This document shows, piece by piece, positions 1 through 64,000 of a stretch of 64,000 bases of DNA (position 1 is its first letter; every line of letters starts with the position of its first letter). Where the stretch lies: positions 196,655 to 260,654 of the forward strand of contig JAGOOG010000001.1 in the NCBI GenBank assembly GCA_017992605.1, read 5' to 3'. The position numbers were made by a program, and so were the translations under genes. The stretch comes from Deltaproteobacteria bacterium (lineage in GTDB: Bacteria > Desulfobacterota > Desulfomonilia > UBA1062). The notes beneath the pieces were generated by a model. It saw only the letters and a list, made by a program, of their open reading frames with translations. It had not been told where the DNA came from and searched no databases.

Positions 1-1448
1 ACGATACGCGGATCGCTCAGGTCGTAGTCGAGGATGAGCAGGGGTATCCCTTTCTCGCGGCACTTCTCCCGGAGGATGCCGTTCATGGCCTGGCCGCTTT
101 TGCAGCCCACGTGGTTGGCCACCCAGACCATGTCGAGGTCGAACTGTCTCACCATGCGGAAGATGTCGTCAAGGTAGTTCTCCGCAGGCCCCCGGGTGTG
201 ACGGACCATGGGACCATGCATGACGATCCTGCTCCAGCCGCGCAGCATGGACTCGGGCGTGGCGGTGTCGATGGGTTCGAGGTGGTTGTAGCTCATGCTG
301 TCGTTCAGGATGGTCAGGCCATAGGTGCGCTCCGCCCAGTTGAATATGTCGGGGAAGTGGAGAAAGGGCGGGTTCCAGCACACCGCCCGGTACCGCTCGT
401 TCACCGTGGCAGGGAGGTTTTCTTCGAGATTCTTCCGGGCAAGCGTCACCAGACGCTCGAAGTGCTCCGTCGAGCCCCTGAACTCAGGGGTCACGTTGAA
501 ATGCCAGAGGTGGCTCATCCACACGGCCTCGCTGGCAAGGGGGCTCGGCCTCACCCGGAGCATGTCCCACAGTTCCCGCTCCAGCTCCAGCATGCGGTTG
601 CGGTTCTCGCACATCTGCCTGAAGCGGTCCCAATCCATGCGGCCCGGCGTGTGTTCCTCGAGGAATGCGATCATGCCTTTGACGTCCTCGACGAACAGGT
701 CCACGGCGCGCTCGGTATGAAAGTGATACGGAACATCGAGGCGGTAGATGGGTACGCCGAAGGCCCGCTGGAAGTAGGTGTACGAAGCCGCTCCTGCGTC
801 ACAGGGCAGGTTGGAGCTCACGACGGCCTTGCCCCCGGGCAGGTGACCCTTAAGCACCATGCCGATGGTCGCCTTGGGCAGGCTGCAGGAATCGGGATTG
901 ATCCCCTCGTTCTCCGCCTCGTCGATGTACTCCAGGCATATCTCTGGGTCCAGCATGGGAAGGACTATGCCCATGGCCTCGAGGAGATAGCACCTCAACC
1001 CCATGGCATGGGCGATGTCGGGGGGCACGAGGTCTTCGTTCACGACAAGACGCTCGGGGTCGAAGAACATCTCGCACAGCAGCCACACCGTCCCGGCGAC
1101 GATGGTGTGCATGGTCATGCAGATCGCCTCGTTATAACGGCCTGTCCTTCCCTTCAGGAACCTCCTCGACAGGGCGTTCACCTTCAGCAGTGTCAGGATC
1201 CAGGGGCTCCGTATGAGGGTCCGTACGAATCTGGCCGGGCCGAGGGTGATGGCACACTCGACGAGAAATCCGACGATGGTCGTATAATTGAGCACCCAGT
1301 ACTTCATGTACACGGCCAGGTCCTTCGATGTGTGCGCGTGGAGGAGGTATTCCGCGAGGGAGTTGTGCCAGAGTCTCCGGCCTGTTTCTCTGAGATTGGC
1401 GAGTAGATATGTCACGTTCCCGACCATGTTCTTCACGGCGTCCCTCAT
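1..1448 (-). CDS. 2-hydroxyacyl-CoA dehydratase / benzoyl-CoA reductase family, large subunit (partial, runs off left edge)
   Basis: At least 482 residues are readable from ATG 1448-1446; the 3' end lies outside the window. After an N-terminal helical extension of about 130 residues comes the family core: a segment reading GIVLPML near residue 160, SSNLPCDAG near 210, and HVGCKSGQAMNG followed by GIPLLILDYD near the edge. The last is the Cys-containing pattern of the HgdB/BcrB/BcrC fold that binds a [4Fe-4S] cluster. Its large size and N-terminal extension match the BcrB-like gene at 5725-7128. It is probably the partner of the smaller subunit encoded 10 bp upstream. The ribosome site is weak, which suggests coupled translation. 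The substrate cannot be read from the sequence. Confidence 0.8.
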   Translation of the reverse strand, partial: MRDAVKNMVGNVTYLLANLRETGRRLWHNSLAEYLLHAHTSKDLAVYMKYWVLNYTTIVGFLVECAITLGPARFVRTLIRSPWILTLLKVNALSRRFLKGRTGRYNEAICMTMHTIVAGTVWLLCEMFFDPERLVVNEDLVPPDIAHAMGLRCYLLEAMGIVLPMLDPEICLEYIDEAENEGINPDSCSLPKATIGMVLKGHLPGGKAVVSSNLPCDAGAASYTYFQRAFGVPIYRLDVPYHFHTERAVDLFVEDVKGMIAFLEEHTPGRMDWDRFRQMCENRNRMLELERELWDMLRVRPSPLASEAVWMSHLWHFNVTPEFRGSTEHFERLVTLARKNLEENLPATVNERYRAVCWNPPFLHFPDIFNWAERTYGLTILNDSMSYNHLEPIDTATPESMLRGWSRIVMHGPMVRHTRGPAENYLDDIFRMVRQFDLDMVWVANHVGCKSGQAMNGILREKCREKGIPLLILDYDLSDPRI

Positions 1449-30461: not shown

Positions 30462-30590
30462 ACCATATCGGACCGGCAGCACAACATTGTGTATTCAAAC
30501 CGGATGCTGCACCGTCGTCATGATCCGGGGACGTGCTCTTTGACCTGTTTGCAGAATGCGTCAACCATGGCGCCGGATTTGCAGGCGAGC

Positions 30591-31994
30591 ATGGACATGG
30601 ACGATCAACGAGACGACCACTGGCACGAGGAATGCGGCATAGTCGGCATATACGGAGACGAACGGGCGGCCGAGAAGGTATACCTGGGTCTCTACGCACT
30701 CCAGCACCGGGGCCAGGAGAGCGCGGGCATAGCGGCTGCAGACGGTTCCTGCCTTGCGTTCCACATGGGACTGGGTCTCGTGTGGTCCGTGTTCGCAGAC
30801 CCCACGGTCATGCCGAGGCTCAGGGGGCGTGCCGCCATAGGCCATAACCGCTATTCCACCAGGGGCACATCCACCATCACCAATGCGCAGCCCATTGTCA
30901 TCGAGTGCAGGACAGGCACGATCGCTGTGGCCCACAACGGCACGATAACCAACGCCTCCCGGCTCCGAAGGGACATGCAGGACACCGGCTCCATCTTCCA
31001 GACCACGTCGGACAGCGAGATCGTCCTGCATCTCATAGCAAGGTCACAGGAGACGGACCTCGTCTCGTCGGTCATGGACGCGCTCAAGAGGCTTGTGGGC
31101 GCATACTGCTTCGTTTTTCTGACGCCGGAGATGCTCATCGCGGCACGGGACCCCTTGGGATTCAGGCCCCTGAGCATAGGCAGGCACAAAGATGCGTACC
31201 TGCTCGCGTCAGAGACCTGCGCATTCGACATCATGGGTGCGGAATACACGAGATCGGTGGAACCGGGCGAGGTTGTCGTGATCGACAGGTCAGGCATGAG
31301 ATCCCTCAGGCTCCCCGAATCCCCGCGGAAGAGCTTCTGCATCTTCGAGCACATCTATTTTTCCAGGCCGGACAGCCTTGTCTTCGGGGAGAAGGTGGAC
31401 AAGATCCGCAGGAGGCTCGGCAAGAAACTCGCCGAAGACGCCCCTGCGGACGCCGACATCGTGATCGCGGTTCCTGATTCGGGAAACACCGCAGCCCTTG
31501 GCTTTGCACGGGTATCGGGGCTCCGTTACGAGATCGGTCTCATCAGGAACCACTACGTGGGCCGCACCTTCATAGCCCCCCATCAGGACAAACGCAAGCT
31601 GGACGTGAAGGTGAAGCTCAACCCGGTCAGGGGGGTCATCGACGGGAAGAGGGTCGTGCTCGTTGACGACTCCATCGTGCGCGGGACCACCATGCGCCAG
31701 ATCGTGAGGATCCTCAGGTCCGACGGCGCCCGCGAGGTCCACGTGAGGATCAGTTCACCCCCCATAAAGCACCCCTGCTTCTACGGCATCGACATATCCC
31801 GTCACTCGGAGCTCATCGCCAGCGAGAAGACCGTCGAAGAGATCAGGGGGTACCTGGAGGCTGACTCCCTGGGATACCTCACCATACCCGGCATGCTCGG
31901 CACGGTGGACAATCCCGGCGACTACTGTACCGCGTGCTTCAGCGGGGACTACTGCACGCCTGTCCCGGAGGAATTCGACAAGTACTGCATCTGA
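30591..31994 (+). CDS. purF: amidophosphoribosyltransferase (Fe-S type)
   Basis: About 467 residues from ATG 30591 (ATG 30597 also possible). It makes phosphoribosylamine from PRPP and glutamine, the first purine step. A propeptide of about 14 residues precedes the nucleophile Cys in ECGIVGIYG, which must be exposed by processing. RGQESAG and NRYST complete the glutaminase; VVLVDDSIVRGTT is the PRPP loop. Late cysteines in YCTACFSGDYC plus the earlier FCIF and PCFYG fit the [4Fe-4S] ligands of Bacillus-type PurF. No other purine gene is adjacent. Confidence 0.95.
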   Translation: MDMDDQRDDHWHEECGIVGIYGDERAAEKVYLGLYALQHRGQESAGIAAADGSCLAFHMGLGLVWSVFADPTVMPRLRGRAAIGHNRYSTRGTSTITNAQPIVIECRTGTIAVAHNGTITNASRLRRDMQDTGSIFQTTSDSEIVLHLIARSQETDLVSSVMDALKRLVGAYCFVFLTPEMLIAARDPLGFRPLSIGRHKDAYLLASETCAFDIMGAEYTRSVEPGEVVVIDRSGMRSLRLPESPRKSFCIFEHIYFSRPDSLVFGEKVDKIRRRLGKKLAEDAPADADIVIAVPDSGNTAALGFARVSGLRYEIGLIRNHYVGRTFIAPHQDKRKLDVKVKLNPVRGVIDGKRVVLVDDSIVRGTTMRQIVRILRSDGAREVHVRISSPPIKHPCFYGIDISRHSELIASEKTVEEIRGYLEADSLGYLTIPGMLGTVDNPGDYCTACFSGDYCTPVPEEFDKYCI

Positions 31995-50375: not shown

Positions 50376-51506
50376 GTGTGCCGCTTGTTCGCCATCACCA
50401 GTGAGGATGCACTCTCCCCCATGGTGGCCATACGGGCGCTGGACGTCATGAAGGAAGGTCACGACGGCTCGGGGGTGGGGCTGCTCATGACCGATCTCGG
50501 CGGCGACCTGGAGCAGTTCAGGGGGTCCCCCATCATGTCAGGGATTTTTTCCCAGGAAGGAATCAAGAAACTCGACCGGTACATGATGGAACTCGGTCTT
50601 CTCACCAAGTTCAAGTTGTCCATACGACCTTCGAGCGCGCCACCCGAGGGTACCCCGCGTCGGGACGTCTACCTCATCAGGGTTTATGAGTACCCGTATG
50701 AATGGGAGGGGTTGTCAGAGGTTGAAATCGCGTCGCGGCTCATGCACATACGGGTAGACCTGCGGAAGTTGGGCGAAGAGGACCAGTCCATGATGGTCTT
50801 TTCATTCTGGCCGGACACCATCATGATCAAGGAGGTCGGTGACCCCGTGGCGGTGGCGGAGTACCTCGGACTCGACCGGCAGGAGCTCAAGGCCAGGGTC
50901 CTGCTTGCCCAGGGTCGCCAGAACACGAATTACGCCATCACCCTGTATGCCTGCCACCCCTTCTTCATCCAGGGTTATGCCACCATGACCAACGGCGAGA
51001 ACACGGCATTCATTCCGAACAAGGAGTATCTCATGTCCCGCGGATACTCCGGGTACATGGGCTACCAGTCGGACTCCGAGGTCTTCACGCACATTCTCCA
51101 CTATACCAGGAACATCCTCGGCCTCGGCCTCGAGGAATACAAGCACGTGATCACCCCGCTCAAGGACGAGGAACTCATGCGCCACCCGGAGGCGTCTTTT
51201 CTGCGCAACCTGAAGCACTCCTGCAGGTTTCTCACGACCGACGGGCCCAACTGCGTCATCGGGTGCCTGCCCGACAGGACCCTGTTCATGGTCCAGGACA
51301 GCAAAAAACTCAGGCCCGGAGTCGTCGGGGGCAGGCCGGGCATGTTCGCCTTCTCGTCGGAGATGTGCGGACTGGATAAGGCCATACCGGACAGAGACAG
51401 GAAACTGGAGTACCAGCCCATGAAGTACGACGTGGCGTATGTCGACGCCGCGCGAGCGGAGATACGGAAATGGAACCAGTGGGAACCCTGCACCCTTCCT
51501 CACTGA
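50376..51506 (+). CDS. glutamate synthase, glutaminase domain as separate subunit (GltB1-like)
   Basis: A protein of 376 residues from GTG 50376, 6 bp after AGGAGG. The class II amidotransferase nucleophile is Cys2 (MCRLFAI), exposed by removal of the initiator Met. KEGHDGSGVGLLM near 26-38 fits the glutamine-binding motif. The rest corresponds to the first domain of the large glutamate synthase subunit, which archaea and some anaerobes encode separately. It should release ammonia from glutamine and pass it to the FMN subunit encoded next, with which it overlaps by 37 bp. Confidence 0.85.
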   Translation: MCRLFAITSEDALSPMVAIRALDVMKEGHDGSGVGLLMTDLGGDLEQFRGSPIMSGIFSQEGIKKLDRYMMELGLLTKFKLSIRPSSAPPEGTPRRDVYLIRVYEYPYEWEGLSEVEIASRLMHIRVDLRKLGEEDQSMMVFSFWPDTIMIKEVGDPVAVAEYLGLDRQELKARVLLAQGRQNTNYAITLYACHPFFIQGYATMTNGENTAFIPNKEYLMSRGYSGYMGYQSDSEVFTHILHYTRNILGLGLEEYKHVITPLKDEELMRHPEASFLRNLKHSCRFLTTDGPNCVIGCLPDRTLFMVQDSKKLRPGVVGGRPGMFAFSSEMCGLDKAIPDRDRKLEYQPMKYDVAYVDAARAEIRKWNQWEPCTLPH

Positions 51507-53104
51507 GCACCCGGGACCTGCCCTGGCGAGTTCTTTGGAACAAGGACAGGTGCACCCTGTGTGGCAGGTGCACCTCCGCGTGCCCGGTACGTGCCATCGA
51601 ACTGGGCGTGCACCGGAAGCGCACCCTCGATGTCCCCGTGGGGCTCGCAGTGAAACCCTCGAACCTTTATCAGGTCTATCACGGAATCGATCAGACGAGT
51701 GATCCCGCGCGGGCATGTATCGGATGCGGACTCTGCACGCAGGTTTGCCCCAACGACGCAATCTGCCCGGTCCACAGCGAAGAGATCGACAAGCTCAGAT
51801 TCCATGTCAACAAAGGCGGAGAGCCGAGGAGGAGAGGCGGACGGAGAAATGATCCCGGGAGCATCCTGGACCGCATCAAGTTCATCAGGATCTCCATGCT
51901 CACGGACCCTGCCCTGGATGCAGGGAGGCACGAGTTCGAAATCAGGACGCTGCTGGGCCGAATACTCCCACCCGAGGAGCTTCTCAGCGCATCCCGGGAG
52001 AACGCCTGGATACCGCCGGTGCGCGAGATCTATCCCCTTGTGGTCGGGGGCATGTCCTTCGGCGCACTTTCTCCCACCATGTGGGAAGGGCTCCAGATGG
52101 GGGTCGCCTACCTGAACGAGGAACTCGGCATGCCGGTGAGGATGTGCACCGGTGAGGGCGGATGCCCCCCGCGGCTGCTCAAATCCAGGTTCCTCAGATA
52201 CGTAATCCTCCAGATCGCCAGCGGATACTTCGGCTGGGACGAGATCATCCATGCGCTGCCGGAGATGAAGGAGGACCCCTGTGCCATAGAGATCAAGTAC
52301 GGGCAGGGCGCCAAGCCAGGCGACGGCGGCCTGCTCATGTGGTACAAGGTCAACAGGCTCATCGCGGCCATACGCGGTGTCCCCGCGGGCGTGAACCTCC
52401 CGTCGCCCCCAACGCACCAGACCAAGTATTCCATCGAGGAGTCGGTGGCCAAGATGATCCAGTCCATGTACATGGCATGGGGATTCAGGGTGCCCGTGTA
52501 CCCCAAGATATCGGCCACCACGACATCATTGGCCGTGCTGAACAACCTCGCGCGAAATCCTTATGCCGCGGCCCTGGCCATCGACGGAGAGGACGGCGGC
52601 ACCGGAGCCGCCTACAATGTCTCCATGAACCACATGGGGCACCCCATCGCCAGCAGCGTCAGGGACGCCTATCTCACCCTGGTGAAGATCGGCAAGCAGA
52701 ATGAAATTCCCCTGTTCGCAGGAGGGGGTGTCGGCAAGAACGGGAATCTCGCAGCCAACGCGGCAGCGCTCATCATGCTCGGCGCAAGCGGGGTCCAGGT
52801 GGGCAAGTACGTCATGCAGGCAGCCGGGGGATGCGTGGGGTCCGAGTCGGACAGGTGCAATATCTGCAATATCGGCCTGTGCCCCAAAGGCATAACCTCG
52901 CAGGATCCGCGGATCTATCGGCGGCTCGACCCAGAAGACGTGGCCCAGCGGCTCGTGGATGTCTTCCTGAGCTTCGACGTCGAACTCAAGAAGATACTCG
53001 CTCCGCTCGGCAGGTCCACCGCCCTGCCCATCGGGATGTCCGACGCCATCGGTATCGACGACCGCGATGCCGCAGAGCGTCTGAACATACGCTATGTGGT
53101 CTAG
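51470..53104 (+). CDS. glutamate synthase, ferredoxin + FMN-binding synthase subunit (GltB2-like)
   Basis: A protein of 544 residues. Two [4Fe-4S] ferredoxin motifs open it: CTLCGRCTSACPV near 24-36 and CIGCGLCTQVCPN near 83-95. The FMN barrel follows: GMSFGALSPTMWEG near 190, GEGGCPP near 227, PKISATTTS near 345, and DGEDGGTGAA near 375. The [3Fe-4S] ligands lie in CNICNIGLCPKGI near 463-475. It joins 2-oxoglutarate with ammonia and reduces the product to glutamate. The N-terminal ferredoxin part may accept electrons from the third subunit. Confidence 0.9.
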   Translation: MEPVGTLHPSSLSTRDLPWRVLWNKDRCTLCGRCTSACPVRAIELGVHRKRTLDVPVGLAVKPSNLYQVYHGIDQTSDPARACIGCGLCTQVCPNDAICPVHSEEIDKLRFHVNKGGEPRRRGGRRNDPGSILDRIKFIRISMLTDPALDAGRHEFEIRTLLGRILPPEELLSASRENAWIPPVREIYPLVVGGMSFGALSPTMWEGLQMGVAYLNEELGMPVRMCTGEGGCPPRLLKSRFLRYVILQIASGYFGWDEIIHALPEMKEDPCAIEIKYGQGAKPGDGGLLMWYKVNRLIAAIRGVPAGVNLPSPPTHQTKYSIEESVAKMIQSMYMAWGFRVPVYPKISATTTSLAVLNNLARNPYAAALAIDGEDGGTGAAYNVSMNHMGHPIASSVRDAYLTLVKIGKQNEIPLFAGGGVGKNGNLAANAAALIMLGASGVQVGKYVMQAAGGCVGSESDRCNICNIGLCPKGITSQDPRIYRRLDPEDVAQRLVDVFLSFDVELKKILAPLGRSTALPIGMSDAIGIDDRDAAERLNIRYVV

Positions 53105-53122
53105 AGGGAGCCCCGAAACGAG

Positions 53123-55462
53123 ATGACACATCACGACGCCATATTCATAGCTGGCATCGAGGATGAACGGAGGATCGAAACCCGCGTACTCGAGGAGCGC
53201 ATCCAGAGTGCCGTGCAGAACGGATACCACAGGATAGAGGTGCATGCCCACGGTCAGCACGGCATCGGGGGAAGGCTCTGGAACTCGGACGGGAAGCCTG
53301 TCAAGGTCGATGTGTTCGGTTTTCCCGGACAGCGCATCGGTTCCATGGGTTCGCCGAACACGACCATCGAGGTGCACGGCCCTGCTTCGGACGACGTGGG
53401 CTGGCTCAATGCCGGGGCGAACATCGTCGTACACGGCGATGCCACCAACGGTGTCGCCAATGCCATGGCACAGGGAAGGATCTATGTCGCCGGAGACATC
53501 GGCGCCCGCGGCATGACCATGACAAAGAGCAATCCCCGCTTCGACCCGCCTGAACTCTGGGTGCTCGGAGGGGTCGGCGACTCCTTTGCGGAGTTCATGG
53601 CCGGGGGTATTGCGGTCGTGTGCGGAATCGGTTCCAACTATCGAAAGAACCACATCCTGGGTCACCGTCCCTGCGTCGGCATGGTGGGAGGCAGGATCTA
53701 CTTCCATGGTGTGCAGAAAAGCTACAGCGAGGCGGACGCGAAACTGGTGCGCATCACCGACGACGAGTGGGAGTGGCTCAGGGCCGGCCTGAAGGATTTT
53801 CTGGAAACCATAGGCAGAGGGTATCTCTACGAGGAGCTCATCATCGACCGGTCGGCCTGGCAGCTCATAACCGCCAGGCATCCATCGGAGAAGGTCCGTA
53901 CCAGAAGGTTCACCATGAGCCAGTTCCGCAGCGACGTATGGGAAAAGGAAATCGGCCGAGGCGGGCTCATCGGTGATCTCGTCGATGGAGACCGGGGAGT
54001 CCTGCCCGTGATCGCCTCCGGGGAGATGCGCAGATTCGTGCCCGTGTGGGAGAACTGCAAATACATGCCGCCGTGCCAGGCCGCCTGCCCCACCGGTATC
54101 CCGGTCCAGAAGCGCTGGGCCCATATCAGGAACGGCGACCTCGATGCGGCCGTAAATCTCGCCCTGCAGTACACCCCGTTTCCGGCCACGGTCTGCGGAC
54201 ATCTCTGTCCGAATCTCTGCATGGAGGGATGTACCCGTACCCGGGCCCGGATGACCCCCATCGACACCGCACTGCTGGGAAAGGCAAGCCTCACCGCGAG
54301 CGAACCCGTTGCGCGACCGCCGACAGGGAAAAAGGTCGCCATCATCGGAGGCGGCCCCGCCGGGCTCTCCGTGGCCTGGCAGCTCTGGATGAAAGGTCAT
54401 GAGCCTGTCATCTTCGACAGGGCTGAGGATCTGGGGGGCAAGATACGCAGCGCCATCCCCTTCATCAGGATCCCCAGGGAGGTCTTCGAACACGAGCTCC
54501 GGCGCGTCGTGAACAGGGTGACCAGGGTCAGGGTCGAGGGAGACGGCGTCACCGAAGAGCTTTTCATGGACATCCGCCAACGGTATGAGTATACGGTCAT
54601 TGCAGTGGGAGCAGACAATCCACGGGAGCTGAGGATCAAGGGATACGACAGGGCAGTTCCCGCCCTGGATTTCCTGCGGTGCGCGAAGGAAGACACGTAT
54701 GACCTGGGAGACAAGGTGGTCGTCATAGGGGCGGGCAACGTGGGGTGCGACGTGGCGACCGAGGCCTACCGGCTCGGCGCGAAGGAGGTCACCCTCGTGG
54801 ACGTCCAGAAGCCGGCCTCCTTCGGCAAGGAGCGGGAGGCGGCTCAGAAGGCAGGTGCACGTTTCATGTGGCCCGTCACGACCGAGGCCATTACCCGCAA
54901 GGGCGTCGTCCTTTCCACCGGCGAGGTGGTGCCGGCGGACACCGTCGTCGTGTCCATCGGCGACAAACCGGACCTTGGCTTCCTCCCCGACACCATCGAC
55001 ACCTCGGGCGGATTCATCAAGGTGAACGAGGAATATCGCACAACGGACATGAATGTTTTCGCCATCGGTGACAGTGTCAGGCCCGGCCTCATAACGGACG
55101 CCATCGGTGCCGGCAGGAAGGTCGCCGAAAGTATCGATGCGGCCTTCACAGGAGCCGAAGAGTCTCACGACCGGCTCCAGGTCATGGACCCTGCCCGCGT
55201 CAGGCTGGAGTATTATGATCCCACAGCCAGGGAATTCCCGGACATCCGGGCATGTTCGACGGCCTGTGCATCCTGCGGCGATTGCCGCGACTGCGGCCTG
55301 TGCGAATCGATCTGCCCGCAGCAGGCCATTTCACGGAGGTCGCTTCAGGAAGGCAGATACGAATACGTGGTGGACGGCGAACGCTGCATCGGGTGCGGTT
55401 TCTGCGCCGGGGCCTGCCCGTGCGGCATATGGAGCATGAAGGAGAACGATCCCATCGTATAG
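53123..55462 (+). CDS. glutamate synthase, GXGXG domain fused to GltD-type oxidoreductase and ferredoxin (GltB3-GltD fusion)
   Basis: A protein of 779 residues in three parts. Residues 1-250 are the glutamate synthase GXGXG beta-helix domain (HGQHGIGGRLWN, DIGARGMTM). Residues 305-690 match the small subunit: cysteines in CKYMPPCQAACPTGIP and CGHLCPNLCMEGC, FAD loop IIGGGPAGLS, and nucleotide loop VIGAGNVGCDVA. The second beta strand of that last fold ends in Asp (LVDVQ), which favours NADH over NADPH. The C-terminal 75 residues are a two-cluster ferredoxin (CGLCESICPQ, CIGCGFCAGACPCG). The fusion supplies electrons to the FMN subunit. Confidence 0.88.
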   Translation: MTHHDAIFIAGIEDERRIETRVLEERIQSAVQNGYHRIEVHAHGQHGIGGRLWNSDGKPVKVDVFGFPGQRIGSMGSPNTTIEVHGPASDDVGWLNAGANIVVHGDATNGVANAMAQGRIYVAGDIGARGMTMTKSNPRFDPPELWVLGGVGDSFAEFMAGGIAVVCGIGSNYRKNHILGHRPCVGMVGGRIYFHGVQKSYSEADAKLVRITDDEWEWLRAGLKDFLETIGRGYLYEELIIDRSAWQLITARHPSEKVRTRRFTMSQFRSDVWEKEIGRGGLIGDLVDGDRGVLPVIASGEMRRFVPVWENCKYMPPCQAACPTGIPVQKRWAHIRNGDLDAAVNLALQYTPFPATVCGHLCPNLCMEGCTRTRARMTPIDTALLGKASLTASEPVARPPTGKKVAIIGGGPAGLSVAWQLWMKGHEPVIFDRAEDLGGKIRSAIPFIRIPREVFEHELRRVVNRVTRVRVEGDGVTEELFMDIRQRYEYTVIAVGADNPRELRIKGYDRAVPALDFLRCAKEDTYDLGDKVVVIGAGNVGCDVATEAYRLGAKEVTLVDVQKPASFGKEREAAQKAGARFMWPVTTEAITRKGVVLSTGEVVPADTVVVSIGDKPDLGFLPDTIDTSGGFIKVNEEYRTTDMNVFAIGDSVRPGLITDAIGAGRKVAESIDAAFTGAEESHDRLQVMDPARVRLEYYDPTAREFPDIRACSTACASCGDCRDCGLCESICPQQAISRRSLQEGRYEYVVDGERCIGCGFCAGACPCGIWSMKENDPIV

Positions 55463-55520
55463 TATAGAAGGCGTCAGGCAGCGAGGAAGCGCCCATAATC
55501 AATCAATGGAGGATGGATGC

Positions 55521-56852
55521 ATGTTTAACTGCAAGACCAAGAGTGATGTTCTGAAAGCGGTGAAGGAGTATGACATAAGCTTTATCCAGTTCTGGTTCAC
55601 CGACGTGCTCGGCAGGCTGAAGAGCTTCCAGATCACCCCTTCGGAGCTCGATGAGGGCATCGACGAGGGCATGGGCTTCGACGGATCCTCCATCGAGGGA
55701 TTCGCCCGTATCCATGAGAGCGACATGATCGCCAAGCCCGACCTGACCACCTTCCAGATGCTTCCCTGGCGGCCGGCGGAAAAGCCTGTCGCACGGATGT
55801 TCTGCGATATTCTCAACCCCGACGGAACCCCCTATGAGGGTGATACGCGCTATGCACTCAAACGCGTACTCAAGAAGGCCGTCAAGATGGGCTACACGGC
55901 CTATCTCGGTCCCGAGCTCGAGTATTTCTACTTCGCCAACAGCACCTGCCCGGAGATCATCGACCGGGGCGGCTATTTCGACGGTCTTCCCATCGACCTC
56001 GGCACCGATCTCAGGCGGGAGACCATTTTCGCACTCCAGAAGATGGGGATCAGGGTCGAGTACAGCCACCACGAGGTCGCGCCTTCTCAGCACGAGATCG
56101 ATCTGAGGTATGCAGAGGCGCTCAAGATGGCCGATATCGTCATGACCTACCGCACGGCGGTCAAGGAGATAGCACGCCAGAAGGGCGTCTATGCCACCTT
56201 CATGCCCAAGCCCATCTTCGGCGAGAACGGCAGCGGCATGCACGTGCACCAGTCTCTCTTCAAAGGCGACGAGAACGCATTTTTCGACGTCAAGGACAAG
56301 TACCACCTCTCCAAGGTCGGGAAAGGGTACATCGCCGGCATCCTCAGGCACGCACGGGAGCTTGTGGCCGTCACCAACCAGTGGGTGAACTCATACAAGC
56401 GCCTCGTGCCCGGATACGAGGCACCGGTCTACGTGTCATGGGCCCGCAGGAACCGCTCGGCCATGGTCCGCGTCCCGATGTACAAACCGGGCAAGGCCCA
56501 TGCCACCCGAATCGAGTTCAGGGCACCGGACCCTGCATGCAACCCGTACCTGGCCTTCGCGGTCCAGATTGCGGCCGGTCTCGAAGGCGTGATCAAGAAG
56601 TACCCCCTGGCCGATCCCGTCGAGCAGGACATCTATGAAATGGATGAGGAAGCCAGGCAGGAAGCCGGCATCACCTCGTTGCCCGGCAACCTCTTCGAGG
56701 CCATACAGGAGGTGTCCAGGAGTTCCATCGTGAGGGAAGCCCTCGGAGACCATATCTTCCTGAAATTCATCGAGAACAAGAAGAAGGAGTGGGACAACTT
56801 CCGCATCCATGTCAGCAAGTACGAGATTGACACGTATCTTGCGTTACTATAG
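55521..56852 (+). CDS. glnA: glutamine synthetase type I (alpha-type)
   Basis: A protein of 443 residues. ATG 55521 is chosen with GGAGG 8 bp upstream; ATG 55506 precedes that site. MGFDGSSIEGFARIHESDM and HEVAPSQHEIDLRYA carry metal and substrate ligands. FGENGSGMHVHQSL and RSAMVRVP follow, and RIEFRAPDPACNPYLAFA is in the C-terminal half. The adenylylated Tyr segment of the beta type is missing and the length is that of the Bacillus/archaeal alpha type, so covalent control by GlnE is not expected. It follows the glutamate synthase genes by 58 bp and is probably co-transcribed, completing the GS-GOGAT cycle. Confidence 0.95.
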   Translation: MFNCKTKSDVLKAVKEYDISFIQFWFTDVLGRLKSFQITPSELDEGIDEGMGFDGSSIEGFARIHESDMIAKPDLTTFQMLPWRPAEKPVARMFCDILNPDGTPYEGDTRYALKRVLKKAVKMGYTAYLGPELEYFYFANSTCPEIIDRGGYFDGLPIDLGTDLRRETIFALQKMGIRVEYSHHEVAPSQHEIDLRYAEALKMADIVMTYRTAVKEIARQKGVYATFMPKPIFGENGSGMHVHQSLFKGDENAFFDVKDKYHLSKVGKGYIAGILRHARELVAVTNQWVNSYKRLVPGYEAPVYVSWARRNRSAMVRVPMYKPGKAHATRIEFRAPDPACNPYLAFAVQIAAGLEGVIKKYPLADPVEQDIYEMDEEARQEAGITSLPGNLFEAIQEVSRSSIVREALGDHIFLKFIENKKKEWDNFRIHVSKYEIDTYLALL

Positions 56853-56897: not shown

Positions 56898-56932
56898 CAC
56901 GAGTATATGCGGCCATCTTCGGGAGCTTGAAT

Positions 56933-58075
56933 GTGATAGGCAAGGCAAGGAGACCAGCTGTCCTGGTGCTGGAAGACGGCACCGTATTCAGGGGCAGTGT
57001 CTTTGCCGGTCATTCAGCGCGATTCGGGGAGGTCGTGTTCAACACCGGCATGACCGGTTACCAGGAGATCCTCACCGACCCCTCCTACAAGGAGCAGATC
57101 CTCGTCATGACCTACCCCCTCATCGGCAACTACGGGGTCAACGACGAGGACGTCGAATCGGCCGGGATCCATCTGGAGGGGTTCATTGTCCGAGAATACC
57201 AGCCCTTTCCGAGCAACTTCAGATCGAAGAGGACCCTGGCGGACTATCTGGAGGAACACCACCGGATCGGCATGGAGGGTGTCGACACCAGGGCCTTGAC
57301 GAGGCACATCCGCACCAGGGGAGCCATGAGGGGGGTGGTGGCCACCGACGTGGACCATATCGATAACCTGATGGACAGGCTGAAAGGGTACCCGGGACTG
57401 GTGGACCGCGATATCGTGCAGGACGTGACGGGCGATGCAGCGTATCTCTGGCACGAGAACCGCAAGATCCCCATGGACACACCTCCTGCCAAGTCAGATC
57501 GTCCCCGTGTCATGGTCGTCGACTGCGGGGTCAAGCTCAACATCCTGAGGATGCTCGACAGGCATGGGTGCGAGGTCGTCGTGGTGCCCGCCCGGACTTC
57601 ATCCCGCCACATCATGGCCATGGATCCCGACGGAGTCCTTCTCTCCAACGGGCCCGGAGATCCCGCCCCGCTGAGGTATCTCGTCGATACGGTCAGGGAT
57701 CTCCTGGGCAGGGTGCCCATTTTCGGGATCTGTCTGGGTCACCAGATCCTGGGACAGGCCCTGGGAGGTTCGACGGCAAAACTCAGGTTCGGTCACCACG
57801 GCGTAAACCAGCCCGTCAAGAACCTCCGCACAGGCAGGGTCGAGATCTCGTCCCAGAACCATGGATTCGTGGTCCTCACTGAAACCCTCCCGAGGGACAC
57901 CCGCGTGACGCATGTGAACCTGAACGACAACACCCTCGAGGGGTTGAGTTTTCCAGGCCTGAAAGCCTTCAGTGTCCAGTACCATCCCGAGGCGGCCCCG
58001 GGCCCGCGTGACTCCGCGTACCTTTTCAGGGAGTACCTGCAACTTATGGGGCGGCATACCCCCCATGGAGCATAG
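56933..58075 (+). CDS. carA: carbamoyl-phosphate synthase small subunit
   Basis: A protein of 380 residues from GTG 56933, 7 bp after GGGAG; TTG 56927 is in frame. The N-terminal domain is typical (TGMTGYQEILTDPSY). The class I amidotransferase follows with nucleophile Cys in GICLGHQILGQALGG near 265 and the His-Glu pair in QYHPEAAPGP near 350. It releases ammonia from glutamine for carbamoyl phosphate, feeding arginine and pyrimidine synthesis. carB is not adjacent; a GlmS-like gene follows instead. Confidence 0.95.
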   Translation: MIGKARRPAVLVLEDGTVFRGSVFAGHSARFGEVVFNTGMTGYQEILTDPSYKEQILVMTYPLIGNYGVNDEDVESAGIHLEGFIVREYQPFPSNFRSKRTLADYLEEHHRIGMEGVDTRALTRHIRTRGAMRGVVATDVDHIDNLMDRLKGYPGLVDRDIVQDVTGDAAYLWHENRKIPMDTPPAKSDRPRVMVVDCGVKLNILRMLDRHGCEVVVVPARTSSRHIMAMDPDGVLLSNGPGDPAPLRYLVDTVRDLLGRVPIFGICLGHQILGQALGGSTAKLRFGHHGVNQPVKNLRTGRVEISSQNHGFVVLTETLPRDTRVTHVNLNDNTLEGLSFPGLKAFSVQYHPEAAPGPRDSAYLFREYLQLMGRHTPHGA

Positions 58076-58190
58076 GGGATTGCCTGTAATGCCTCTCGGA
58101 TGTTATAGAGGGCATGCCGGGGTAACCCCGGGCAAGTCTCTGAATGGAGTGGATGTTATTTTCGACATGACACGGTGGATGAGGAACCTC

Positions 58191-61100
58191 ATGCCGCGCA
58201 GCTGGAATGTGTTCATCGGTAAAGACCCGAGGACCGTCACCGGACCCGCCATCGTTTTCTTCCCCGTCCAGGACACCCTCTGTTGCTGCGGTCTCGCTGG
58301 TTTCGTCTGCATCAGGCGCGCCGAAGCGCACCTCGACATGCGCATCACCGACCGTATTGCCCGGGCGGTCGATACGGTATGCGCAGGCGGAGTCTCAGCC
58401 CTCATCGCCGGAAAGATCCCAAAGCAGTCATACCTGGGCCCGGAATCCCTGCACACGATAGGTGAGGAGGTCTCCCGCATCAAGCGTGACACCGACCTCC
58501 AGCATGCGCTCGGTTGCGGTCGCAGTCTCCTGCGTCTCACCGAGCTCTCGGAAAGGTTGAAGACCTTTGTTGACAGCGAGGACGCAGCCCTCGAGAAAGA
58601 GGCGAGGCGCTATGGTTCAGGGGACCTGGAGGCCATGACGTCGTCACTGGTGGCGCTCAAGGACATCACCTGGACGCTGAGAGAGGATATCATAAGGAAC
58701 TACGAGAGGATCCTCGGTCTGGCCGGCGAGATGATGTACGAAGACTCCGGTTATTACGGCCGATTCCAGAAAATCAACGCGTGTCTCAATGCCCTCGACA
58801 GACTCGAGGTGCGCGGGAGGGACTCGGCAGGTCTGCAGGTGATGGTGCAGTTCGAGAAGGCAGGGTCGATGCAGTCGCTGCGGCATGCCCTGGCACAGCA
58901 GGGGCTTTTGGAATCGTTCATGGCACGGTGCAGGCCCTCGGACCTGATGAACGGGTCCATCCACCTTTCCGGAACGGTCCTGACCTTCACCTACAAGACC
59001 GCCCAGGTGACGGGTAAACTCGGCGAGAACACCGCAAAGCTGAGGAGATACATCAGCGAAGACGCCGTCCTCAAGGAGACCCTGGCGCACAGGTGTTCCA
59101 CCGAGACCTTTCTCACCCATACCCGCTGGGCATCGGTGGGGGCCATCAACGAGATCAACTGCCACCCGGTGAACAGCCACACCGTGGACATCCCTCCCGG
59201 TGAGGAGAACGGCATTCCGGCCGTCATGAAGGAGTACCCGTTCTATGGAAAGGGTGCATGGACGATAAGCGCGGTGCTCAACGGTGATATAGACAACCAC
59301 CACGTGTTGCGCGGCGCCATCGGGGAAGGGGGTGTCTCGGCGAGTCCCGATGTCACCACCGACACCAAGACCATCCCGCTGATGGTCGAACACTACCTCT
59401 ACCAGGGCCATGACCTGAAGGAATCCTTCCGCAGGGCCGTGTGTGACTTCGAAGGATCCCATGCCGTTGCCATGGGGAGCAACATGGAGCCGGGCAAGGT
59501 CTTTCTGGCCCAGAAAGGCAGCGGACAGACCATCTACGTGGGTCTTCTCGACGACGGGTACATGTTCGCATCGGAGGTGTACGGCCTCGTCGAGGAGACA
59601 CGGCGGTTCGTCAAGATGGACGGTGAAACGCCGCGCGTGCCGGGGGACCCGGCGACCCTGGGGCAGCTTTTCATCCTGCATGACGACCGGGGCCCGGGCC
59701 TCGGAGGCATCGAGGCCATGTCCTACGACGGGCACCCCCTGATCCTCGGCGACAGGGACGTCAGCTTTGCGCAGATAACGACCCGAGACATCGACCGGGG
59801 CGAGCACCCCCACTTCCTCATAAAGGAGATACTCGACGCGCCTTCCTCCATCCGCAAGACCCTTCGCGGCAAGTATTTCATCAGCGAGGGCAGGGGGGTG
59901 GTTTTCAACCTCGACGAAGGGGTCGTGGACGGACGGACGCGGGAAGACCTGCGTCAGGGAAGGATCAGGAACATCTTCGTGGTCGGACAGGGCACGGCAG
60001 CGGTTGCGGCTGCCGCCGTCGCAGAGGCCATGGCCGTCTACCTCAGAACCGCACCCGTTCGAGTCCATGCCCGGAAGTCCTCGGATCTGAGCGGGTTCCT
60101 GCTGGACGACGACATGTCTGATACCATCGTGATCGCCATTACCCAGTCGGGGACCACCACGGACACGAACCGTGCCGTGTCCATGGCACGCCTCCGTGGG
60201 GCCAGGCTCATCGCCATCGTCAACCGAAGGCAATCGGACATCACCACCAAGGTGGACGGTGTGTTCTACACGAGCGACGGGCGGGACATCGAGATGTCCG
60301 TGGCGTCCACCAAGGCATTCTATTCCCAGATCGTGGCAGGATACGTGCTTGCGCTCTTCTTTGCGCAGCTGCTGAAAACCATGCCGGACGAAGCCATAGC
60401 ACGCGACATCGAGACCCTCGAGGATGCACCGGATCTCATGATGCGTGTCATACGGGGCAGGGATGCCATCCGCAAGTCCGCGTGGAACCTGGTCCGGAGA
60501 AAACAGTACTGGGCCGTGGTAGGCAGCGGCATCAACAAGGTGGCCTCGGACGAGGTCCGCATCAAGCTTTCCGAGCTCTGCTACAAGACCATTTCGTCGG
60601 ACGTCATAGAGGACAAGAAACACATCGACCTGTCCTCCGAGCCGCTCATCCTCGTATGCGCCGCCGGGAGCCCCGAGATCGTGATCGACGACATCGTCAA
60701 GGATGTCGCCATCTTCAAGGCGCATGCAGCCACCGTGGTGGTCATCACCGACGAGGGAGAAGACCGCTTCGACGGCATCTCCGACGCCGTCGTCAGGGTG
60801 CCCCGTGCAGGATTCCCGCTCTCCGTTATCTTCAATACCCTGGCCGGCCACCTCTGGGGGTACTACGCAGCATGCAGCCTGGACGAGCTGGCATCTACCA
60901 TGAAGGGTTTCAGAACGAGCCTGGCCGAAATAACACGGGGGCACCAGAGCAGGGAATACACGGTCTACGAGAGCATCGCTGACAGGGAGCTCCACAGGGC
61001 AATCGACACGTATGCCGCCGAGTTCAAGAGATGGCGTGCAAGGGGCGAACTCGCATCCATGAGCAACGAGGTGGCCTCGGACATCGCGCTGCTCTTCAAA

Positions 61101-61874
61101 TACGCAAAGGGAAAGCTGCCCGTGGAAGATTTCTGGATGGAGTTCGAGGACAGGCGTGTCTCCTCCTCACCCATCGACATGCTCGACCTCACCCTGAAGC
61201 GTGCCGTGGACGAGCTCTCCCGTCCGGTCGACGCCATACGTCACCAGGCGAAGACCGTCACCGTCGGCACCAGCAGGAAGACGGAGACGCCACGGGGACC
61301 TGTCTTCGAGGTGTTCGGGGAGCTCGGGTTCACCCCGGAAAGCATCCGTGCCAAGGACGTCCTGACGCTCAAGAAACTGCAGTCCGCCATCGACAGGGTC
61401 AATGGTTACACCCTCTACGAAGTCGAGGGGCTCGACGAAGACGGCATGCCCACCGAAGATTCCACGCTCGCCATTGTCAAGCGGATGGGCTCCGCCACCG
61501 GGATGACGTCGCGCTACGACAGGCCGGCACCCCTGAAGGGAACCAAGAACACCATCGTCCGCACGCGCAAGGTGTACGCAGGGACCGGTCGCTCAGATGA
61601 TGCCTCCATAGTCATCATCCCCATCCAGGGACCGAGACGTATCATAACCCACCTGCTCCTGCTGCAGGTGGATTTCGACGAACGGATAGGGACCGAGCAG
61701 AAGAAGGACGTCATGGGCGTGAAGACAAACGACCTCATGAACCTCATCAACGAATACAACATCCCCTGGAAGGACGCATACCTCGAAGGGCTTGCGGTCA
61801 AGTTCCTTCTCGGTGAGGACGTAGAGGTCATCAAGAACAGGATATTCGAGCAGATCGGGAACCCTGCGGAATGA
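58191..61874 (+). CDS. giant GlmS-like protein (class II amidotransferase + two SIS domains + C-terminal extension)
   Basis: About 1227 residues if started at ATG 58191; ATG 58167 and others upstream are possible, and no site is strong. The usual GlmS has about 610. CCCGLAGFV near 30-38 looks like the nucleophile Cys of a glutaminase, but it is not at residue 2. About 175 inserted residues separate it from RGRDSAGLQV. THTRWASVGAINE, LNGDIDNHHVLR and TDTKTIPLM complete that domain. SIS1 has ITQSGTTTDTNRA and EMSVASTKAFYSQ; SIS2 has VGSGINKVASDE and DKKHIDL. About 325 further residues are unassigned. Probably an amino-sugar synthase variant. Confidence 0.75.
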   Translation: MPRSWNVFIGKDPRTVTGPAIVFFPVQDTLCCCGLAGFVCIRRAEAHLDMRITDRIARAVDTVCAGGVSALIAGKIPKQSYLGPESLHTIGEEVSRIKRDTDLQHALGCGRSLLRLTELSERLKTFVDSEDAALEKEARRYGSGDLEAMTSSLVALKDITWTLREDIIRNYERILGLAGEMMYEDSGYYGRFQKINACLNALDRLEVRGRDSAGLQVMVQFEKAGSMQSLRHALAQQGLLESFMARCRPSDLMNGSIHLSGTVLTFTYKTAQVTGKLGENTAKLRRYISEDAVLKETLAHRCSTETFLTHTRWASVGAINEINCHPVNSHTVDIPPGEENGIPAVMKEYPFYGKGAWTISAVLNGDIDNHHVLRGAIGEGGVSASPDVTTDTKTIPLMVEHYLYQGHDLKESFRRAVCDFEGSHAVAMGSNMEPGKVFLAQKGSGQTIYVGLLDDGYMFASEVYGLVEETRRFVKMDGETPRVPGDPATLGQLFILHDDRGPGLGGIEAMSYDGHPLILGDRDVSFAQITTRDIDRGEHPHFLIKEILDAPSSIRKTLRGKYFISEGRGVVFNLDEGVVDGRTREDLRQGRIRNIFVVGQGTAAVAAAAVAEAMAVYLRTAPVRVHARKSSDLSGFLLDDDMSDTIVIAITQSGTTTDTNRAVSMARLRGARLIAIVNRRQSDITTKVDGVFYTSDGRDIEMSVASTKAFYSQIVAGYVLALFFAQLLKTMPDEAIARDIETLEDAPDLMMRVIRGRDAIRKSAWNLVRRKQYWAVVGSGINKVASDEVRIKLSELCYKTISSDVIEDKKHIDLSSEPLILVCAAGSPEIVIDDIVKDVAIFKAHAATVVVITDEGEDRFDGISDAVVRVPRAGFPLSVIFNTLAGHLWGYYAACSLDELASTMKGFRTSLAEITRGHQSREYTVYESIADRELHRAIDTYAAEFKRWRARGELASMSNEVASDIALLFKYAKGKLPVEDFWMEFEDRRVSSSPIDMLDLTLKRAVDELSRPVDAIRHQAKTVTVGTSRKTETPRGPVFEVFGELGFTPESIRAKDVLTLKKLQSAIDRVNGYTLYEVEGLDEDGMPTEDSTLAIVKRMGSATGMTSRYDRPAPLKGTKNTIVRTRKVYAGTGRSDDASIVIIPIQGPRRIITHLLLLQVDFDERIGTEQKKDVMGVKTNDLMNLINEYNIPWKDAYLEGLAVKFLLGEDVEVIKNRIFEQIGNPAE

Positions 61875-61917: not shown

Positions 61918-63168
61918 ATGGACCTGAAGCCCCGATGTGGTGAAAGGATCGCAGAACTCATCGAGAAGGGGGTCGACATCCCCAACCCCCTCAGCCTGGA
62001 TGTAGGGGAAGAAGTCGACCTCGACCGGATTTCGGCCTACAAGGTCAGGATATACCCCGGGTGCAGGATATACGGCAAGGACACCGTCATATCGTCCGGG
62101 TCACAGATAGGCCGCGAAGGTCCTGTCACCATCGAAGGCTGCCAGCTGGGCCGCGACGTCGAGCTCAAAGGCGGCTTTTTCAGCAAGTCCGTGTTCCTGG
62201 ACAGGTCGAACATGGGGCTCGGTGCCCACGTCCGCGAGGGATGCATCCTCGAGGAGGAGGCGGGTGGAGCCCACTGCGTGGGCCTCAAGCAGACCATACT
62301 CTTCCCGTTCGTGACGCTGGGCAGCCTCATCAATTTCTGCGACTGCCTCATGGCCGGGGGCACGAGCCGGAAGGATCACAGCGAGGTGGGGAGCTCCTAC
62401 ATCCACTTCAATTTCACCCCTGACGGCGACAAGGCCACCGCCTCCCTCATCGGCGACGTCCCCCGGGGAGTCATGCTGAACCAGCCTGCCATATTCCTCG
62501 GAGGACAGGGCGGGATCGTCGGGCCGGTGCGCATGGGCTTCGGGAACGTGGTGGCTGCAGGCACGGTGCTCAGGGAGGACTGCCTTGCCGACAGCAGGCT
62601 GATCCCGGGCAGGAGCACGTCCGGAAAGGTCAAGGAGTATCGGTCCGCGCTGTACCCGAACCTGATTCGCGTCGCGGAGAACAACATCATCTATCTCGCA
62701 AACCTCGCGGCCTTGAGCGAGTGGTATGTCCACGTCCGCAAACAGTTTCTCGATGGCCAGGAGTTCGGCCCGCTCATCCATGCGGGGCTCCTCGACAGGC
62801 TCTCGTCTGCCCGAAAGGAACGTCTCAAGAGATACGAGGCCTTCGCCAGGCGTGCCTCGGCCGCGGATCCATCCGGGTCTGAGGAAACACGGCGCCTGAG
62901 AAAGGAACTTGGTGGGACCGTCGACAAGATACAGGCACTATGTGAAGACAAGGGTGTGCCGGATTCACCCGCGGCGGCATCGAGAGACACATTCCTCGCC
63001 GCAATGGAACGGGCGAGGCAGGGTGGTCCCGGCAGCTACATCGAGACAATACAGGCCCTGCCTGCAGAGGTTTCTTCAGCGGGCACCCGGTGGCTCCGGG
63101 GCGTTGTCGAACACTTCTGCGCGGAGGCATCCCGGGCCATGCCCGGCCTGAGGCTGTTCGGGAAGTGA
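61918..63168 (+). CDS. left-handed beta-helix protein (GlmU-like acyltransferase fold without nucleotidyltransferase)
   Basis: A protein of 416 residues with GGAGGG upstream. Hexapeptide-type turns run from about residue 45 to 240 ([20 protein letters not shown], then [13 protein letters not shown] and [17 protein letters not shown]). [34 protein letters not shown] follows in the same region, abbreviated here to its ends. The C-terminal 150 residues are helical. There is no GlmU pyrophosphorylase domain at the N-terminus. It lies between a GlmS-like gene and glmM, so it may handle an amino-sugar or its nucleotide; no catalytic residue can be named with certainty. Confidence 0.65.
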
Positions 63169-63205: not shown

Positions 63206-64000
63206 ATGGGCAAACTCTTTGGCACGGATGGAATACGGGGAGAGGCAAACCGCTATCCCATGACCGCGGATATCGCGTTCAAGGTCGGTCAGGCCGTGAC
63301 GTACCTTCTGCGGAAGCAGAACCACCGCACACGGGTCATCATCGGCAAGGACACGCGCATATCGGGCTACATGCTCGAAAGCTCCCTTGAGGCAGGCATC
63401 ACCTCCATGGGCGGCAATCCCTACCTGGTCGGCGTGCTGCCCACGCCCGGAATCGCCTTCATCGCGACCAGCATGCGCGCCGATGCGGGCATCGTCATAT
63501 CGGCCTCCCACAATCCCTACGAGGACAACGGGATCAAGATCTTCGGCGGCAACGGGTTCAAGCTGTCCGACGAGCAGGAGAACACCATCGAGGACCTCAT
63601 GCTGGGGGGGAAGCTCTCTGACTACCTGCCCCCGTCCAGGGACATGGGCCAGGCCTTCCGCATGTATGACGCGAACGGCCGGTACGTCGTCTTTCTGAAG
63701 AACACCTTCCCCCGCGACCTGTCCATGGAGGGGATGAAGATGGTCCTCGACACGGCCAACGGCGCCACCTACCGGGTTGCACCGGAAGCCTTCACCGAAT
63801 TCGGCGCCGATGTGGAGGTCATCCACAACGTGCCCAACGGGGTGAACATAAACGACGGGTGCGGCTCCCAGCACACCGGCGACCTGAAGGAGAAGGTCCT
63901 TGAAACGGGTGCCGCCATTGGGCTGGCCTTTGACGGAGACGGCGACCGCCTCATTGCGGTGGATGAAAAGGGCAGGGAGATCACCGGAGACCAGATCCTC
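63206..64000 (+). CDS. glmM: phosphoglucosamine mutase (partial, runs off right edge)
   Basis: The first 265 residues are present, from ATG 63206 with GAGGGGGG upstream. [20 protein letters not shown] is the classical start. The phosphoserine loop is [14 protein letters not shown] near 96-109, and the metal-binding loop DGDGDR lies near 247. It converts glucosamine 6-phosphate to glucosamine 1-phosphate on the way to UDP-GlcNAc. Length and motifs fit GlmM rather than phosphomannomutase. It is the third gene of the amino-sugar group, 37 bp after the beta-helix gene. Confidence 0.93.

Follow-up and report, generated by a model that had tools for sequence, protein, structure and literature searches.

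Glucosamine-6-phosphate synthase (GlmS) is the entry step to UDP-N-acetylglucosamine (UDP-GlcNAc) and the cell wall. Among class II amidotransferases, glutamate synthase GltB and some PurF proteins are made with a propeptide that is removed; to our knowledge, propeptide removal has not been described for GlmS. Bacterial GlmS and eukaryotic GFAT (TIGR01135, PRK00331) combine a class II glutaminase domain with two SIS domains, and Cys1, Glu488, His504 and Lys603 are the GlmS catalytic residues named in passages of PMC9272926. Here we analyse a GlmS-like gene at positions 58167–61874 (forward strand) of a 64,000-nucleotide stretch of a Deltaproteobacteria bacterium (contig JAGOOG010000001.1, positions 196,655 to 260,654), which we call the window. 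Its product has the same domains in the same order, every catalytic residue checked and, as predicted, the same fold as GlmS and GFAT. Unlike them it is about twice the length, with an insertion after the first strand of the glutaminase domain, extra loops, a second insertion before the C-tail, a PAS/GAF-like C-terminal domain and, in the window's clade, a leader before the catalytic Cys.

Sequence comparison and structure prediction point to this protein as the likely sole glucosamine-6-phosphate synthase of the cell, a lengthened and divergent but glutamine-dependent GlmS. In the class II glutaminase domain Cys33 would hydrolyse glutamine; the ammonia released would reach the two-SIS isomerase domain and there be transferred to fructose 6-phosphate, with Glu795, His811 and Lys1021 acting. 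The leader before Cys33 would be removed, most likely through self-cleavage. Less certainly, the PAS/GAF-like domain, which is connected to the C-tail closing the isomerase site, may sense a metabolite and adjust activity.

The family models do not place the protein within GlmS as currently curated. Its score against the TIGR01135 equivalog is 225.2 bits, below the curated cut-off of 418.05, and the PRK00331 cut-off is likewise missed, both of which weigh against the function proposed above; the protein stays below the cut-off of every NCBIfam GlmS model, and Pfam recognises one SIS domain only, with the glutaminase at the borderline. Recognisable glutaminase and SIS regions, as reported in a preliminary description of this locus made from the sequence alone, are nevertheless borne out by the family searches and alignments together. 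We have filed the gene as a novel long GlmS variant, outside the TIGR01135 equivalog, because it fails the curated cut-off and the rule that the protein begin Met-Cys, despite sequence and fold tests that are GlmS-like. Genomes with the long form can thus look as if they had no glmS.

Searched against its own genome (98.5% complete), the window protein finds only itself. The check for a canonical glmS proposed in the preliminary description gave the same picture: no locus in this genome exceeds the TIGR01135 cut-off, and the long form stands alone, whereas 14 of 14 control genomes have such a locus. None of the 24 genomes of its own family group (f1) has one either. Among 60 genomes comprising its own and its relatives, 36 carry the long form, 19 a canonical GlmS above the cut-off, one (G038) both and six neither, counting as long three matches that are cut short (G003, G018 and G034) and one split over two contigs (G006). 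The six with neither form are G012, G015, G016, G022, G043 and G051, of which G012 and G051 are 99 and 98% complete. One of the long-form genomes additionally encodes a 427-aa SIS-only GlmS-like protein (G010:C37:88470-89510).

The same exclusion holds across the phylum. Across 197 evenly sampled genomes with a completeness of at least 90%, the long form occurs in 25 and the canonical form in 163 (one of them below the curated cut-off); one genome has both and ten have neither, so that canonical GlmS is missing from 24 of the 25 long-form genomes. If the two forms were independent about 21 double holders would be expected (Fisher p 7e-22, uncorrected for genome relatedness). The one observed here, G199, and G038 are the only two genomes in which both forms were found. 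A family-profile scan of species genomes yielded at least 528 encoding loci, and the titles of the best 80 are mostly Deltaproteobacteria, Syntrophus, Smithella and Syntrophaceae, with Planctomycetota, Eremiobacterota, Armatimonadetes, Riflebacteria and others among the remainder. The long GlmS is a large, widespread and unnamed family, and with 25 long, 163 canonical and just one double holder among the 197 genomes it replaces canonical GlmS. Among the titles and opening lines of abstracts listed for PMC papers, none describes the family.

Every catalytic residue checked is conserved. In an alignment of 67 members (A2) the equivalents of Cys1, R26, R73, W74, H86, N98, G99 and D123 of the glutaminase domain and of T302, Q348, S349, T352, S401, E481, K485, E488, H504 and K603 of the isomerase are invariant in 67 of 67; the whole long architecture is conserved over these members, so it is not a product of chance. 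In the window protein Cys33 (codon 58287–58289, placed by alignments and structural alignment) corresponds to Cys1, Glu795 and His811 to the isomerase residues Glu488 and His504, and Lys1021 to Lys603. The rest of the glutaminase domain (58761–59700, end approximate) holds R208, R312, W313, H325, N364, G365 and D391, and the two SIS domains (59793–60881) hold Q652, S653, T656, S706, K708, E788, K792, E795 and H811, all on the forward strand. An alignment with 15 canonical GlmS proteins of the same phylum keeps the same catalytic residues in 54 of 54 long members. These 54 are the ones among 77 that fitted strict patterns for cutting, which excluded the other 23; the Lys603 segment was attached to the core by script, and the structural alignment supports its position independently to within about two residues.

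That alignment also brings out differences. Tyr28 is replaced by Arg, Ser303 by Ala and Ser604 by Thr, and Gly505 is lost, in all 54 long members. With Tyr28 read as Arg and Gly505 missing throughout, details of the channel or of the substrate may differ from canonical GlmS, which is a point against the proposed function. The preliminary description had gone further and suggested that the protein might make a different amino sugar. Such a role, or another keto-sugar phosphate as substrate with the canonical function met elsewhere, would fit the diversity of SIS enzymes, the altered active-site neighbours (Ser303, Gly505 and Tyr28) and the score below the GlmS cut-off. We consider it improbable: the isomerase residues and indeed all the catalytic residues are kept, the host genome offers no other GlmS above the cut-off and 24 of the 25 long-form genomes of the phylum sample no canonical one, the two forms hardly coexist, and an acetyltransferase-like gene and glmM lie immediately downstream, glmM being the second gene.

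Comparison of folds with GlmS rests on an AlphaFold model of a relative, L044, rather than of the window protein; it runs from Cys-31 over 1200 residues, omits 11 C-terminal residues and has a mean predicted local distance difference test score (pLDDT) of 85. VIA-align superposes it on E. coli GlmS (1jxa_A) with Z 43.8 and a root-mean-square deviation (rmsd) of 6.5 over 597 residues, pairing model residues 32..1013 with 1..608. The separate halves fit more closely: the glutaminase 1xff gives Z 29.9 and rmsd 1.6 over 238 residues, and the isomerase 2zj3 gives Z 44.0 and rmsd 2.3 over 361, isomerase rows overall falling at 2.1–2.3.

Two long helical insertions account for part of the added length. 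The first separates the first strand of the glutaminase domain from its first helix (58311–58760, limits approximate, forward strand) and is predicted in the L044 model to be a helix bundle. An insertion after CGLAG had been noted at about 175 residues; it is real but smaller, with about 150 net residues, since 175 is the whole distance from the Cys to the Arg of RGRDS, which in canonical GlmS is 25. Further inserted loops lie between RGRDS and HTRWAS. The second insertion, helical in the models (60882–61214, forward strand), adds about 110 residues downstream of the second SIS domain, and the C-tail motif follows that domain at a distance of about 114 residues.

This C-tail, RPVDAIRHQAKTVTVG (residues 1011–1026; 61221–61268, forward strand), is almost invariant within the long family. 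It matches the canonical GlmS C-tail QPRNLAKSVTVE, which holds the catalytic Lys603, and its counterpart at the very end of canonical GlmS is DQPRNLAKSVTVE; Lys1021 is encoded at 61251–61253. The preliminary description took the C-terminus to be new, which holds for the extra helical residues and for the PAS/GAF-like domain beyond, but it missed the canonical tail RPVDAIRHQAKTVTVG retained between them. In the L044 model the pLDDT of the C-tail falls below 50, and VIA rows differ by about two residues in register at its end. Both observations count against the proposed function, and because of them the placement of Lys1021 in the active site rests mainly on sequence.

In the ORF that begins at 58191, 32 residues precede the catalytic Cys of CGLAG, an internal position, as the preliminary description had stated; neither here nor in leader-bearing relatives does a start codon stand immediately before it. 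Of 70 near-complete members, 58 have a gap-free 31-residue leader ahead of the Cys, and so does the window protein, where it is annotated as residues 1–32 (58191–58286, forward strand; motif hhhG[RK]xPxxVxxPAIIhFPxxxxxLxC). Its positions are fixed relative to the Cys: Pro at -8 in 59 of 59 (a count partly built in, as loci without that Pro were counted leader-less by definition), Gly at -23 in 55 and Pro at -20 in 54. A wrong start, a frameshift or a fusion that hides a truly N-terminal Cys is very improbable. The true start codon is unfixed among several candidate ATGs, which leaves some room for such an artefact, but conservation and fixed spacing of the leader over 58 of 70 loci speak strongly against it, as do the codons themselves: 0 of 57 leader members have ATG, GTG or TTG immediately before the Cys, and 20 of the 57 have none within 25 codons upstream. 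The double-size ORF ending at 61874 is itself genuine; it is uninterrupted, in a frame open from 57972, and encodes 1227 aa from 58191, the start first assigned, or 1235 aa from 58167. The latter is the more likely start, since its ATG lies at Cys-40 and relatives most often have ATG at -42 (23 of 57).

Members without a leader all begin at the Cys. Of 12 such loci, the preceding codon is an observed start codon in 11, and in the twelfth, L106, the residue before the Cys reads Val (the codon itself was not inspected). In the more distant f2 group a start codon stands immediately before the Cys in 10 of 10. On a tree of 85 rows (77 of them long, leader columns left out), built by a quick method and with some long branches, the leader needs three changes, as against 25 on shuffled labels. 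Inside the leader clade, L059 starts Met-Cys with its own purine-rich ribosome-binding site upstream and no leader remnant there in any frame; G198, which was not placed on the tree, starts in nearly the same way. Because these two begin at the Cys without a leader, they argue that the free Cys is the working state and that the leader is dispensable.

For the leader-bearing members the most reasonable account is that the leader is removed, which we hold to be probable, with the enzyme itself as the likeliest agent of the cut, since the Cys needs a free amino group and the distance from the fixed Pro to the Cys never varies; self-removal, based as it is on this fixed spacing, is a guess. GltB and some PurF proteins likewise have extra residues ahead of the nucleophilic Cys in the translated chain. 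The long-GlmS leader, whose cleavage is proposed, differs in being conserved in sequence and exact in length. In the window's own PurF (30489–31994) about 48 residues of the ORF come before the catalytic Cys (...HWHEECGIVGIYG), and some PurF proteins are known with a propeptide before that residue. A membrane anchor or signal in the leader was considered and dropped by eye only.

Some features of the leader weigh against its removal. Its conservation is close to that of the body (mean top-residue share 0.54 over residues 1–40), which is odd for a part that is discarded; the position just ahead of the Cys is variable (C 20, N 19 and F 10 of 59) and gives no cleavage-site signature; and AlphaFold confidence is low for the eight residues before the Cys in the L044 model. 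Together with the location of the gene in an ammonia-assimilation cluster with glnA and a split glutamate synthase, the length, gap-free alignment and structural-type conservation of the leader and the missing protease-site signature would suit an enzyme that keeps its leader: with the Cys blocked, glutaminase activity would be weak or nil, and free ammonia, perhaps available from an ammonia-rich syntrophic habitat, would feed the isomerase. We regard this as unlikely, because a silent glutaminase would be expected to decay, yet the equivalents of R26, R73, W74, N98, G99 and D123 are invariant, and because members that lack the leader and start Met-Cys fall within the leader clade or near it. 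Cleavage or direct use of ammonia had been the two options offered in the preliminary description; both still stand as alternatives, and the invariant glutaminase residues and the Met-Cys relatives favour exposure of the Cys.

Beyond the C-tail the window protein continues into a domain of about 190 residues (61296–61865, forward strand), predicted to run as a helix, a long hairpin, a helix, strands and helices. The tail (residues 898–1227) was modelled separately, with mean pLDDT 91. The best fold match of the domain is an N-terminal segment (174–361) of the large 180-kDa glutamate dehydrogenase L-GDH180 (7jsr), with Z 9.9 over 164 residues (model 142..328). Many GAF and PAS domains follow at VIA Z 6–7; for values below 8 the tool warns that the likeness may be that of a common arrangement, and the 7jsr match scores higher than the rest. 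Foldseek gives a PDE GAF domain as its best match (E 0.005). Sequence searches are silent: Pfam finds nothing in the window tail and only scattered, weak, chance-level matches among 63 members, and the PDB sequence set gives chance-level matches. Identity to L-GDH180 is 7%, and the catalytic domains of the two proteins are unrelated. Regulation of the long GlmS by its tail domain is a reasonable inference, not a result, and the regulatory role raised in the preliminary description gains support from this PAS/GAF-like domain.

The neighbouring genes are a split glutamate synthase (50376, 51470 and 53123) and, all on the forward strand, glnA (55506–56852, NCBIfam match), carA (56927–58075, family-library match), the long glmS, a left-handed beta-helix (LbH) gene that resembles the acetyltransferase half of GlmU only (61918–63168, family-library match) and glmM, which runs off the window end (63206–64000, named by eye from its sequence). 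LbH is present at 42 of 80 loci, at 30 of those 42 within 500 bases and on the same strand; glmM is found at 24 of 80 and both together at 22 of 80, many of the loci being short. The order long glmS, LbH, glmM is retained in L093 despite just 42% identity. An RNA-family scan of the window found only a tRNA, and no glmS ribozyme was seen there.

Upstream, the glutamate synthase genes followed by glnA and carA form a glutamine-handling cluster (50376–56852). The synthase genes were named by eye from their sequences, with NCBIfam support for the last one (53123); they comprise an amidotransferase starting MCRLF, a ferredoxin-FMN part and a third gene in which GXGXG is fused to a GltD-like part with an extra ferredoxin. 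GlmU also appears to be split in family group f1. The TIGR01173 cut-off is passed in 0 of 24 genomes, and strong GlmU matches in 21 of the 24 are nearly all ORFs of about 335–393 aa that cover profile positions of about 3–330; the separate LbH-only protein adjoins the long glmS in the window (61918–63168), and L116 (G000:C35:188-1159) is a further locus cited for the split. The f2 group, in contrast, retains a GlmU above that cut-off in 15 of 18 genomes.

Feedback inhibition by UDP-GlcNAc is given, in passages of PMC7000685, as the main feature that separates eukaryotic GFAT from the prokaryotic enzyme. We tentatively propose, with somewhat more doubt than confidence, that the long proteins form an undescribed, broad GlmS family in which a self-removing leader of fixed geometry and a PAS/GAF-like metabolite sensor next to the catalytic C-tail would together bring control at the level of the protein, unlike bacterial GlmS known so far. 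A large family with a sensor-like domain that replaces canonical GlmS in Syntrophales-type and other uncultured bacteria would be a candidate for such protein-level control in bacteria, and it would offer a natural test case for leader-based activation of a class II amidotransferase.

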